Shown here: piece by piece, positions 4,229 to 18,829 of the stretch | Position numbering within the stretch: position 1 is the first letter of the stretch | Layout of the letters: each line of letters opens with the position of its first letter | Assembly: GCA_013204155.1 (NCBI GenBank) | Contig: JABMOK010000044.1 | Location: 1 to 35,200, forward strand | Source: Pseudohongiella sp. | GTDB taxonomy: Bacteria > Pseudomonadota > Gammaproteobacteria > Pseudomonadales > Pseudohongiellaceae | DNA length: 35,200 bases | Direction: 5' to 3' | Notes under the pieces: generated by a model | The model's input: only the letters and a program-made list of their open reading frames with translations | Database searches by the model: none | What the model was told of the DNA's origin: nothing | Program-made: the position numbers and the translations under genes

Positions 4229-5086
4229 ATGTCGGCACTAGTATTGGATGGAAAGGCGCTAGCCAAAAAATTTGAGCATGAGCTGTCCCTCAGGATTGCT
4301 GCGTTAAAGAAAGCTAATCATGGAGCCACCCCGATTCTGGCGACTATTCTCGTTGGCGATGACCCGGCTTCAGCCACCTACGTTAGAATGAAAGGCAATG
4401 CCTGTGAACGTATCGGTATGGAATCTTTGAAGGTGGAACTACCTGCTTCTACCTCGACCCAGCAACTGCGCAACATAATCGAAGAGCTGAATAACAATGC
4501 CAACGTTAATGGCATTCTTCTCCAGCATCCGGTACCTGAACAGATAGATGAAAGGTTATGTTTTGATTCCATCGATGTGAGTAAAGATGTCGATGGGGTG
4601 ACCTGTATCGGTTTCGGCAGAATGGCGATGGGTGCAAAAGCTTATGGCTGTGCAACCCCCAAGGGGATAATGCGTCTACTCGAAGCCTACGATATATCCC
4701 TCGAAGGAAAGGAAGCCGTGGTTGTCGGCCGCAGCCCAATTCTAGGCAAGCCAATGGCGATGATGTTGCTAAATGCAAATGCAACGGTGACCATCTGTCA
4801 TTCCAAAACCTTAAATTTACCAGATGTTATCAAGCGGGCAGACGTTGTTGTCGGCACGCTAGGCCGTCCAGAATACATTAAGGCTGATTGGATCAAAGAT
4901 GATGCTATTGTTATTGACGCGGGCTCTCATCCAGGCGGAGTAGGGGATATAGAACTCGCCCCGCTGGTAGATCGTGTTCGTGCCTACACTCCCGTACCTG
5001 GAGGTGTTGGGCCAATGACAATCAATACACTGATTTACCAATCCGTGGAGGCTGGTGAGAAGAAATTGGCTGCGCTGATGGAATAG
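4229..5086 (+). CDS. folD: Bifunctional methylene-THF dehydrogenase/cyclohydrolase FolD
   Basis: FolD interconverts 5,10-methylene-THF, methenyl-THF and 10-formyl-THF in the cytosol with NADP, feeding purine and formyl-Met synthesis. The catalytic Tyr51 and Lys55 stand in the expected YVxxK arrangement. The stretch ILLQHPVP holds the conserved Gln of the folate site, although the usual PLP there is changed to [18 protein letters not shown] (nucleotide-binding loop) and PGGVGPMT are all present. The frame is open from an ATG at 4187, but the ATG at 4229 gives 285 residues, the normal length, so I use it. A hairpin starts on the stop codon. It is a single gene. Confidence 0.95.
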
Positions 5087-5118
5087 GAAAGGGCGGCTCT
5101 GTAGCGGCCCTATTTCCT
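5085..5118 (+). terminator. Likely terminator hairpin after folD
   Basis: AGGAAA-GGGC at 5085-5094 pairs with GCCC (5107-5110) and TTTCCT (5113-5118), with a two-base bulge and an inner GC/GC pair around the loop TCTGTA. It begins inside the folD stop codon. There is no long T-run, so termination strength is uncertain. Confidence 0.6.
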
Positions 5119-5159
5119 CTGAGGGCTGTTAAAAATACACCAATGAATGAGCTCTAATT

Positions 5160-5879
5160 ATGATTGATCGAGAAGTTGATATTCAAACAAAAGATGGCAC
5201 GATGAACGCGTTCATCACTCACCCCGAAGAAGGAGGCCCGCATCCACTGGTAATGTTTTTGATGGATGCGCCAGGTAAGCGTGAAGAACTGCACGACATG
5301 GCGCGCCGGTTGGGTTCGGCAGGGTATTACGTGATGCTGCCCAATCTTTACTATCGGCGGGTGCGCGAATTTCGGATAGAGAACGCCAGCAGGGAGGAGA
5401 TGTTTGCGCATATGAATTCGCTCAGCAACGCCCTGGTGTGTGAAGACATCGAGGCGTTACTGAATTTTTCGGACAATGACAGTGCCGCGCGTGACGGCAA
5501 GGTTGGCTGTGTCGGCTACTGCATGAGTGGCCCATTCGCATTTGCGGCAGCGTCGGCCTTTCCCGAACGGATCGCCGCCAGTGCTTCTTTTCATGGGGTC
5601 GACCTGATCACGGACAGTGCGGACTCACCTCATCTGGATGCCGAAAAGATCAAGGGTGAAATGTACTTCGGTTGTGCGGAAACAGACGAGTATGCCCCGA
5701 AGCAAATGATCGATGATCTGGAAGCCTATCTGGCGGACAAGAACTTAAAATCCCGTATCGAATGGTATCCGGGAACAGAACACGGATTTGTTTTCCCGTT
5801 GAGACAAGGCAAATACGACAAGGCGGCAGCCGAGCGGCATTGGGAACGGTTGTTGGCGATGTTTGGCCGTTGTTTGTAG
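5160..5879 (+). CDS. Dienelactone hydrolase family protein
   Basis: This is a cytosolic alpha/beta hydrolase of the dienelactone hydrolase family. The nucleophile is Cys121 in GYCMSG, with Asp176 (AETDEYAP) and His208 (TEHGFVFP) completing the Cys-Asp-His triad. The triad spacing matches classical DLH (Cys123, Asp171, His202). The length (239) is normal and no signal peptide is present. No chlorocatechol or other aromatic-degradation genes lie around it, so the true substrate is unknown; many relatives are general carboxylesterases. The ATG lies 73 bases after folD, beyond the hairpin, so it probably has its own promoter. Confidence 0.92.
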   Translation: MIDREVDIQTKDGTMNAFITHPEEGGPHPLVMFLMDAPGKREELHDMARRLGSAGYYVMLPNLYYRRVREFRIENASREEMFAHMNSLSNALVCEDIEALLNFSDNDSAARDGKVGCVGYCMSGPFAFAAASAFPERIAASASFHGVDLITDSADSPHLDAEKIKGEMYFGCAETDEYAPKQMIDDLEAYLADKNLKSRIEWYPGTEHGFVFPLRQGKYDKAAAERHWERLLAMFGRCL

Positions 5880-6184
5880 TAATACTCAGAGTGCGCTTAT
5901 CGCTGCATTTGACTATGGAACTATCGGTTAATAAGTGGGATACTTTATTACGTTCCAAAATTCCATTTTCCTTTCTTGTCTTTGCTATTCCCAGGGTTTA
6001 TCTTTTAGTTCGCTATTTTCCGTCAAAACGCCAAAGTGTATAAGGCCTGCTTTGCGAGGCTACAACAGGCATCGCAAATCGCACGCAGTCAGACGCGGCG
6101 GGAAGGGAATGGCACAGTAAAGATTACTTTTTATCCATTAGTTCACGAGACTCTAATAATCTGTAACAAAACGAGGATAGGGCT
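5880..6184. other. Intergenic gap, no gene seen
   Basis: These 305 bases hold short open frames without coding character or ribosome sites. No clear hairpin with a T-run, no repeat and no tRNA-like fold was seen. A GAGGAT sequence just before 6185 is the probable ribosome site of the next gene. Confidence 0.5.
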
Positions 6185-14391: not shown

Positions 14392-14814
14392 TCAGTATTC
14401 CAGAGCCACACTATTTCTTTCGACTTCAGTTTCAGCTAACCAATCGATTGCTTCCCGTAGACCATCTGTAATCATTGCCGGAAATTTTCTGCGGACTGCT
14501 ACATCCAGACCTGGATTATAGTCAGCGATATTGTCCGCATTGACTACGAATACCATCCTGATCGGTAAGCCGCCAAATTTAAGATAGATCTCGTATTTAT
14601 CAATAATTTTTTCGTAGAAAATAATTTTGTTAACTGCGCTAATATTGCCACCTGCCTTGCGCATATCGATCAGCACTCTGGGCGCAGCAGAAGCGCGGCA
14701 ATGGAGCAGTATTTCCAAAAAGAAATCAATGGAGTCTTGCGGATCGTCATGATTACCCCTTACTTCGCAGAGTAGATAATCAGTTTTATCGAGAAGGTTA
14801 AATTCCAAGGACAT
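14392..14814 (-). CDS. Small SpoIIAA/STAS-like protein
   Basis: This 140-residue soluble protein shows the SpoIIAA-like (STAS-related) pattern: two opening strands (FNLLDKTDYLLCEVRGN), an amphipathic helix (QDSIDFFLEILLHC), a central strand PRVLIDMRKA, a long helix, then IRMVFVVNADN and a C-terminal helix ending in DWLAE. It has the same fold type as the protein at 9059-9484, but the two are not close in sequence. No anti-sigma or kinase partner is nearby. A TATAAT on the minus strand (14841-14846) could be its -10 element. Function is unknown. It is convergent with the exported orphan gene. Confidence 0.72.
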   Translation of the reverse strand: MSLEFNLLDKTDYLLCEVRGNHDDPQDSIDFFLEILLHCRASAAPRVLIDMRKAGGNISAVNKIIFYEKIIDKYEIYLKFGGLPIRMVFVVNADNIADYNPGLDVAVRRKFPAMITDGLREAIDWLAETEVERNSVALEY

Positions 14815-16698: not shown

Positions 16699-18267
16699 TT
16701 AGTCTTTGTCTTTCAGTTCGATCGCTCGAATCTCGGTAATCGGAATGGTCTGAATGTTTTTAAATTTTTCAGTATTCTGATGATAATCCTCCATGATGCT
16801 ACCGATGCTGGCATAGGTATCCGTCACAAAAACAGTCTCTTCATCTCGCGTCTTGCGAGTAATGCCGAAGCTGATCTTTCCTCGTATAGGCTGTGGTATT
16901 TGGTTTAGCATATTTTTGGTAGCCCATATTGAGCCGTTCCTGGCAAAATCACTGATTCTAGAGGCGTAGTTTATCGTGTCGCCAAGCAGGGTGAATTCGA
17001 CATGATCGCCGGCGTGATAACTGCCGAACCATTCCTGACCTTCGTTTAAGCCAATATTAAGAAAAATGTCGCTGAACCAGCCTTTGCGTGACTGCCACTG
17101 CCGGGTGATATCTTTCATCATCTGCTTCAGCTCCAGCGCACACTCAATCGCATTCTGTTTGTAATCGCAGTCCGGTTGAGGGAAGAAGTAGTAAACCATG
17201 CCATCACCGGCATGTTTGCCATAAGTGCCGTAGTACTTTCTGAAGATAGGTGCACTTGCCTGCCAGATGTCATTGATTAGATCGAAATACTCTTCCGCCG
17301 GAAGTTCCGAGCAAATTTTAATTGAGTTCTGTACATCGGCAACCATAACCGTGACGTCTGTCAGATAGGGCTTGCGCTTGTTAAGTAACTCATGAATGAC
17401 CCGGTTACGTTTACTGAGAAATTCCAGCAGAAAGTCATTGTGCAAAACTACTGGAGAATAGGTGAAGAAAATACCTTCTCGGTAAAAGCTGACATACAGG
17501 TCATGAGGAGCCAGAACGCCATCGTCACCAACCAGCATGGTAGGAAAGTGAACCATAGGCTCTTTGCCTAGAGGCTCCACGAGGGCATAGAGCAGTTCGA
17601 GCACTGAAAGCTCATCGGCATTCAGGTCGGAGTAAATCTTGATAAGTGCTTGCTGGCTTAGGCGTTTCTTGGCCGCCGCGAGATGGGGTTTTAACAATTC
17701 CATTAGCTGCTCTGGATTTTTGCCAGCGGCTGTACCAAACAGGAGCTTGATCAGGTTACGAGATCCTAGATCGTTTGGAAGGTCGCTGCCGATGTCGAAA
17801 AATGAGTCCTCCGCCTTTTTATTCCACCAAATTAGTTCCAGGTTGTTGTTGACCAAATACGTGGGACCAGGCAACTCGTCTATGGAACTGTCTAAAGTGA
17901 ACTTGGAAGTAGCCATGTCGGGTTGCAAAGAACGGGTGGGCGATCTGTGCCGACCTGCCGAGGGAACATCTTTCTGCAATTCTTCGCCGGAAACCGGAGT
18001 GGGGGTGCTTGTCTTTGATTTTGCAGTCACTCGCTTGTCTCCTATCTCTTTCGCTATTTGTGCCATGGTCAGACCCTGTTTTTTCATTTGTTTTACGCGA
18101 TTGATACGATCGATGGCCTCGTCCTCGAAATAACCCAGACGAGTGGCTCGGCCTTCATTGTCAGAAGTCTTCACAATCGGGCTGGGGAGGATGCCCAGAG
18201 CCACGTAGTTGTTTAGCGTTGCTCTGGAGATGCCGGTCATTTCGATAAGCTGTTTGCTGTTTAACAT
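16699..18267 (-). CDS. MerR-type HTH / MmyB-like domain / adenylate cyclase fusion
   Basis: Three regions are visible. Residues 1 to about 78 form a MerR-type helix-turn-helix (TGISRATLNNYV, then the wing and QGLTMAQIAKEIG). After a polar linker, about 131-290 resemble the MmyB-type PAS-like ligand-binding domain (GPTYLVNNNLELIWWNKKAE, RNLIKLLFG). Residues about 303-490 are a class III nucleotide cyclase. Metal-binding Asp311 (MVADVQNS) and Asp355 (KHAGDGM), adenine-specifying Lys351 and Asp430, and transition-state Asn433 and Arg437 (GDTINYASR) are all present. The protein should make cAMP from ATP and bind DNA, so it may act as a ligand-gated transcription factor and an enzyme together. No membrane segment is seen. 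Its own promoter region carries repeated TAGACAG sites. The ribosome site is weak. Confidence 0.88.
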   Translation of the reverse strand: MLNSKQLIEMTGISRATLNNYVALGILPSPIVKTSDNEGRATRLGYFEDEAIDRINRVKQMKKQGLTMAQIAKEIGDKRVTAKSKTSTPTPVSGEELQKDVPSAGRHRSPTRSLQPDMATSKFTLDSSIDELPGPTYLVNNNLELIWWNKKAEDSFFDIGSDLPNDLGSRNLIKLLFGTAAGKNPEQLMELLKPHLAAAKKRLSQQALIKIYSDLNADELSVLELLYALVEPLGKEPMVHFPTMLVGDDGVLAPHDLYVSFYREGIFFTYSPVVLHNDFLLEFLSKRNRVIHELLNKRKPYLTDVTVMVADVQNSIKICSELPAEEYFDLINDIWQASAPIFRKYYGTYGKHAGDGMVYYFFPQPDCDYKQNAIECALELKQMMKDITRQWQSRKGWFSDIFLNIGLNEGQEWFGSYHAGDHVEFTLLGDTINYASRISDFARNGSIWATKNMLNQIPQPIRGKISFGITRKTRDEETVFVTDTYASIGSIMEDYHQNTEKFKNIQTIPITEIRAIELKDKD

Positions 18268-18342
18268 GTTTGTTCAGGCCGTAGTCGTGAGTTATCAGTT
18301 GGTTACCAGGCGTGTAGAGGAGGCCCCAGCAACTAGATAGAC

Positions 18343-18372
18343 AGTATAAATAGACAGCTTAGGTATTGTCAA
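18343..18372 (-). promoter_or_regulatory. Sigma-70 promoter of the MerR-cyclase gene
   Basis: On the minus strand TTGACA (18372-18367, full consensus) is separated by 18 bases from TATACT (18348-18343). The start codon is at 18267, so the leader is about 70 bases. The spacer contains one TAGACAG site and the -10 element overlaps another. Confidence 0.65.
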
Positions 18373-18381
18373 CTGTATAAT
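18351..18381 (+). promoter_or_regulatory. Possible long-spacer promoter toward glpE
   Basis: TAGACA (18351-18356) and TATAAT (18376-18381) are spaced by 19 bases on the plus strand, the long spacing typical of promoters that MerR proteins activate by twisting the DNA. It would drive glpE at 18512. The -35 is imperfect, so this is a hypothesis. Confidence 0.4.
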
Positions 18382-18511
18382 TAGACAGTATAAGTAAGAG
18401 GTGGGCAGTATAACTGAGAGGCAGGCGGGATACGGGTCTGCTATCATTGGCAGTCATTCCTGCGATCGGCTTAGACAGCTTTGCAGAGGTTAAATAGAGA
18501 GCGGAGACGAG

Positions 18512-18829
18512 GTGAGTATTACGGTGAATTTCAAACGAATAGGTATTACTGAGGCCCGCGCGTTAATAAGCGAAGCCCCGCAAAACGGATTGCAGATTGT
18601 CGATATACGTGATGAGCAATCATTTCAGCAGGCGCATATCGAGTCTGCCAGTCATCTCGATAACGGTAATATTGAGGAATTTATCGCGAGCGCTGCCGTA
18701 GACAAGCCGCTGTTGATTTATTGTTATCACGGGAATATGAGTCAGGGTGCCGCCGCTTATTTTGCAGAACAGGGATTTACCGAGTCTTATAGCCTGGATG
18801 GTGGATTTGAGGCTTGGCAGGTCGAGTAG
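18512..18829 (+). CDS. glpE: Thiosulfate sulfurtransferase GlpE (rhodanese)
   Basis: A single-domain rhodanese of 105 residues that moves sulfane sulfur from thiosulfate to cyanide or a thiol acceptor such as thioredoxin, in the cytosol. The catalytic Cys71 lies in the six-residue active-site loop CYHGNMSQ, very close to E. coli GlpE (Cys65, CYHGNSS). The short length and lack of a second domain also fit GlpE. The start is GTG with GGAGACGAG just before it. It faces away from the MerR-cyclase gene and shares its regulatory region, which makes a joint control plausible. No glp genes are near. Confidence 0.92.
   Translation: MSITVNFKRIGITEARALISEAPQNGLQIVDIRDEQSFQQAHIESASHLDNGNIEEFIASAAVDKPLLIYCYHGNMSQGAAAYFAEQGFTESYSLDGGFEAWQVE

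Follow-up and report, generated by a model that had tools for sequence, protein, structure and literature searches.

The window analysed in this work, a 35,200-nucleotide stretch of DNA from Pseudohongiella sp., contains on its reverse strand a complete gene (positions 16699-18267, with the ATG at 18267 and the stop codon at 16699) that encodes a protein of 522 amino acids, as established from the open reading frame and its translation, the Pfam matches and the full-length relatives. The domain order in this protein, always on the reverse strand, is a MerR-type winged helix-turn-helix (HTH) domain (residues 1-82, 18022-18267), a linker predicted to be disordered (residues 83-124, 17896-18021), a PAS-fold sensor domain similar to those of MmyB and MltR that is extended by a C-terminal helical connector (residues 126-298, 17374-17892), and the catalytic domain of a class III nucleotide cyclase (residues 303-453, 16909-17361). 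In the Pfam analysis the MerR_1 domain (residues 4-73) scored 29.6 bits against a cut-off of 21.6, and Guanylate_cyc (residues 303-453) scored 40.4 bits against 21.9. In the whole-protein model (pLDDT 85) the HTH is compact and is followed by a linker modelled as disordered (pLDDT below 50 at residues 80-123), by a domain of mixed alpha/beta structure and by the cyclase. The N-terminal MerR-type DNA-binding region proposed in the initial annotation has been confirmed by the MerR_1 match, which was also obtained in 60 of 69 homologs, together with the helices of the model (residues 4-11, 15-23, 50-63 and 68-82) and residue conservation. The long C-terminal dimerisation helix of the MerR family was not found in the model, in which helix 68-82 runs from the HTH into the linker predicted to be disordered. 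Neither a LuxR HTH nor the Xre-type HTH of MmyB-family regulators was present among the Pfam matches of the 522-residue protein.

The cyclase domain was matched to CyaB of Pseudomonas aeruginosa (3r5g) both by sequence (E 1.8e-14) and by fold (TM 0.83 normalised to the target). The alignment identified the first and second metal-binding aspartates, Asp311 (17335-17337, D in 78 of 81 family sequences) and Asp355 (17203-17205, 79/81), the lysine that reads the substrate base, Lys351 (17215-17217, present in all 81), and the transition-state residues Asn433 (16969-16971, 78/81) and Arg437 (16957-16959, 77/81), all encoded on the reverse strand, so that the fold and the complete residue set of class III cyclases were found. 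These five residues had been correctly listed in the initial annotation, but Asp430, also included there, is not part of the set, since the adenine position corresponds to Thr426 (16990-16992, reverse strand), which is aligned with the threonine of the CyaB motif YTIIG. Position 430 is D in 53 and E in 25 of the 81 sequences, and position 426 is occupied by T, A, V or S (T in 53, A in 18, V in 6), with threonine in most members and alanine or valine in many betaproteobacterial ones. The combination of Lys351 and Thr426 suggests ATP as substrate, and a threonine at this position, as in CyaB, fits a class IIIb-type adenylyl cyclase, for which cAMP would be the expected product. Alanine or valine at position 426 may indicate an altered substrate preference in the betaproteobacterial members, and the product is therefore uncertain across the family.

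When the middle domain was modelled alone (pLDDT 88.9), a PAS fold was obtained whose top structural match was the MmyB-like protein MltR (3pxp, Z 8.9, 145 residues aligned, 3.6 Å). A Foldseek search with this domain returned, on its own, generic PAS domains, and its profile gave no real match against the PDB sequences, so that only the fold comparison was successful. The MLTR_LBD family, which is the MmyB ligand-binding domain, was matched at E<0.01 in 6 of 69 homologs (best value 2.8e-4), and no match was obtained in the 522-residue protein itself at E values up to 1. Residues Pro135, Ala136 and Asn149, nearly invariant in the family, are spaced like Pro110, Ala111 and Asn124, which are among the conserved residues of MltR (PMC3406030). 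The resemblance of the PAS-like middle region to the MmyB ligand-binding domain, which had been recognised without tools, was thus borne out by the 3pxp match and by the homologs. The ligand would be a small, probably hydrophobic molecule. In the MltR structure a fatty acid was modelled in (PMC3406030), and a lipid-like ligand for the PAS domain described here is only a guess.

In a scan that covered bacterial and archaeal genomes, 330 stretches were found to encode relatives of this protein. The best 80 of them, nearly all complete, belong to alpha-, beta- and gammaproteobacteria and keep the same domain order and length. The distribution of the family is patchy: of the 61 genomes of the genus, 26 contain a close ortholog, either whole or truncated at the end of a contig, and among 397 genomes of the phylum the middle domain was detected in 4, with open frames of 453-544 amino acids except for one fragment interrupted by a contig end. 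No relative was found in viral contigs, and plasmids gave only partial matches to the cyclase region, none of them covering 80% of the query. In the phylogenetic tree the labelled alpha- and betaproteobacterial sequences fall into separate groups (labels were taken from the record titles, and L080 and L097, titled just 'Proteobacteria', were assigned by us), and such class-wise grouping is the pattern that would be expected of an old gene with mainly vertical descent. Among the 81 family sequences the cyclase is the most conserved part of the chain, and in the HTH the recognition stretch ISRATLNNY (residues 13-21) is nearly unchanged. Two natural variants separate the two functions. In one of them (L066, positions 4431-5990, the same gene as L030), located on a very long branch, Asp311, Asp355, Asn433 and Arg437 have been lost and the HTH and operator half-sites are kept; in the other one (L162, positions 826-2163, from the complete genome G311), the first HTH helices are missing, with no HTH trace in any upstream frame and no visible operator, and the cyclase residues are intact.

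An alignment of close orthologs over their upstream regions brought out a predicted promoter for the gene itself (18343-18372, reverse strand), with TTGACA at 18372-18367, an 18-bp spacer and TATACT at 18348-18343, a layout shared by the orthologs, and also a series of repeats. Each repeat is a dyad of 11 bp around a central A/T, TAKAC-W-GTMTA; dyads are often paired 13 bp apart, and their half-sites lie in phase. One predicted operator pair (18338-18361) consists of TAGACAGTATA at 18338-18348, overlapping the -10 hexamer, and the imperfect TAGACAGCTTA at 18351-18361, in the spacer; the other pair (18369-18392) consists of the imperfect TCAACTGTATA at 18369-18379, overlapping the -35 hexamer, and a further copy of TAGACAGTATA at 18382-18392, upstream, with a distance of 13 bp within each pair. 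In the pattern scan of the window's genome (G000) the second pair was the only match with zero mismatches, and the first one gave two matches with two mismatches. With one mismatch allowed, the dyad was found in 66 of 80 ortholog upstream regions, compared to 1.4 expected from shuffled sequences; several of the 14 orthologs without it are alphaproteobacterial. In the 200 bp upstream of the gene, the 30 close loci contain 64 half-sites (mean 2.6 and maximum 6 in shuffles) and the 50 distant loci contain 80 (mean 2.5, maximum 7), the latter being about a thirtyfold excess, and the top 7-mer of the distant set, CTGTCTA, was present in 34 of the 50 loci compared to 0.75 expected. Elsewhere in the 876 kb of loci only 32 dyads were found, of which 14 occupy two fixed positions within the gene. 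Dyad-like sequences at +74 and +157 of the coding region occur in some twelve loci, L049, L041 and L061 among them, and they may be due to chance from conserved codons or be extra operators.

Across three bacterial classes both the recognition helix and the DNA motif are nearly fixed, which indicates that the protein binds its own upstream dyads, a conclusion that is well supported although indirectly. As this DNA signal is common to the family and precedes the gene itself, the members probably regulate their own synthesis, each at its own gene. The promoter has ordinary spacing, its -10 hexamer is covered by the dyads and its -35 hexamer is reached by them, which suggests that this control is autorepression. 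The strong form of the operator was confined to the gene's own promoters in the pattern scans of the window's genome and up to 21 relatives. No comparable operator was detected elsewhere in the window's genome by this pattern scan, which weak or rearranged sites would escape. A broad regulon was considered and rejected, because scans with 20-mer and 15-mer patterns in up to 22 genomes of the genus, in which weak sites could be missed, gave little beyond the own promoters and LexA-like boxes. The earlier proposal that a ligand could set local transcription is supported in a narrow form only, that of a predicted operator in the gene's own promoter. An operator-like site with two mismatches, CTGTCTAATCAGGCAG, is located at positions 622-637 of the window; such sites are about as frequent in the genome as expected by chance. 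In L059 (5540-5937) a full operator array precedes a 61-residue open reading frame that resembles the end of the MerR domain; this frame is likely the remnant of a tandem gene copy, and the array was therefore discarded as a second target.

Upstream of the gene, and divergent to it, the window contains a rhodanese-domain gene (18512-18829, forward strand; Pfam Rhodanese), which is the divergent neighbour in 21 loci and a possible second target. A further half-site, TAGACAG (18472-18478, forward strand), located 33 bp upstream of the rhodanese start, is weak. Close relatives alone share the rhodanese, a gene for a small membrane protein and a transporter-like gene as neighbours; no neighbour common to distant members was found, and the neighbours were consequently set aside as a functional guide. 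A small protein of 140 amino acids is encoded at positions 14392-14814 of the window (reverse strand) and has no Pfam match. The window's genome also encodes four cNMP-binding proteins and contains four other places matching class III cyclases.

We propose, with a probability of about 0.6, that the protein acts in the cytosol as a one-component sensor, repressing the gene that encodes it and emitting cAMP. The MerR-type HTH would bind the tandem 11-bp dyads around the -35 and over the -10 region of its own promoter, most likely repressing its own synthesis, and the MmyB-like PAS domain would sense its ligand and transmit the signal through the helical connector to a homodimeric class III cyclase. 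The cAMP produced would act elsewhere, for example on Crp-like proteins, and could be read by the four cNMP-binding proteins of the cell. The sensor directly precedes the cyclase, with a helical connector between them as in other PAS-linked cyclases, and is joined only loosely to the HTH, so that the cyclase is most likely what the ligand acts on, perhaps together with DNA binding; the DNA-binding end would set the amount of the sensor-cyclase rather than a broad regulon.

The upstream repeats could in principle be LexA (SOS) boxes instead of sites for this protein, since one element of the window, CTGTCTAATTATACAG, fits CTGT-N8-ACAG and most other matches of the 20-mer in the genome resemble LexA boxes. 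This explanation is hardly credible: CTGT-N8-ACAG was present in only 10 of the 80 upstream regions, compared to the 66 with the TAKAC-W-GTMTA dyad, which rules it out as the conserved upstream element, and in none of the 14 regions assigned to alphaproteobacteria, nine of which contain the dyad; besides, the matches in genus members that lack the gene have no GTCTA half-site. If the dyads are sites for the protein, they could also serve activation of its own promoter or of a gene close by, for instance the divergent rhodanese, through the classic untwisting of a long spacer by MerR proteins, which often activate from divergent promoters. The divergent position of the rhodanese in 21 close loci is in line with this. 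Nevertheless, the promoters described here have good -35 and -10 hexamers and a near-optimal spacer of 17-18 bp, with tandem dyads inside and upstream of it, instead of an operator within the 19-20 bp spacer of MerR-activated promoters; the dyads overlap the -10 hexamer, and the rhodanese is not recurrent beside distant members, all of which makes activation improbable.

A different possibility concerns the relationship between both ends of the protein, as DNA could gate the enzyme: the operator-bound form would be a silent repressor dimer or array, and the ligand-bound form would leave the DNA and become an active cyclase, so that promoter occupancy and cAMP output would be opposite states of one molecule. 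A single molecule would then read the signal, report it globally via cAMP and restore its own level, in an arrangement old enough to be found in alpha-, beta- and gammaproteobacteria. The presence of both outputs and one sensor on a single chain, the operator array, which invites higher-order assembly, and the joint conservation of both ends in almost all members are consistent with such coupling, but the 40-residue linker between HTH and PAS domains is predicted to be disordered, which argues against a tight coupling, and natural variants with a dead cyclase or without HTH exist, so that this proposal is considered unlikely. The cyclase domain might also be a mere dimerisation or nucleotide-sensing module of a transcription factor, with no turnover. 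The degenerate catalytic sets of a few members (fully in L066, by single changes in others) and the variable adenine-position residue point in this direction; however, the conservation of the metal-binding aspartate pair and of the lysine, asparagine and arginine in more than 90% of the 81 sequences, in what is the best preserved region of the protein, makes it very improbable. An autorepressing sensor that emits cAMP is thus the preferred reading. It is usual to regard second-messenger enzymes as one output and transcription factors as another, and this old and widely kept family puts both behind one sensor, with natural variants missing one half that allow the two functions to be compared. 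Should the ligand of the MmyB-like domain prove to be lipid-like, this family would connect cAMP with the state of the membrane or of fatty acids in bacteria that are common in the sea and in groundwater.

The premise of the initial annotation that class III cyclases usually occur beside membrane or sensor domains, and not beside a DNA-binding one, was too strong, because the CHD+LuxR proteins, such as the mycobacterial Rv0386, are described cyclase-HTH fusions (PMC3466318) that, like the protein studied here, carry a class III cyclase and an HTH on one chain. Compared by description, they differ in having a LuxR-type HTH and no MmyB-like PAS domain. The MmyB/MltR family (3pxp; PMC3406030) shares with this protein an HTH followed by a PAS-like ligand-binding domain with the equally spaced Pro-Ala...Asn signature, but its members, mostly from actinomycetes, have an Xre-type HTH and no cyclase. 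The class III cyclases linked to PAS, LOV or BLUF domains (OaPAC, bPAC) and the class IIIb enzyme CyaB, which is the closest solved cyclase, display the same succession of sensor, short connector and catalytic domain, with a different sensor and without a DNA-binding domain. LitR/CarH proteins (class II LitR PmlR2/PplR1; PMC9758184) are repressors with a MerR-type HTH and, as in the present case, with multiple sites over and near the -35 region of their targets, although these sites are TGTACA-N12-TGTACA, the sensing depends on B12 or a LOV partner, the controlled genes are light-inducible and no cyclase is present (PMC9758184). The exact domain order had been regarded as undescribed, which agrees with a full-text search of the open-access literature in which no MerR-cyclase protein was found. 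Cyclase-HTH fusions (PMC3466318), MmyB-like domains behind Xre HTHs (PMC3406030) and the common PAS-cyclases were already known, and what is absent from the open-access literature searched is their combination, its age and the conserved self-directed operator.
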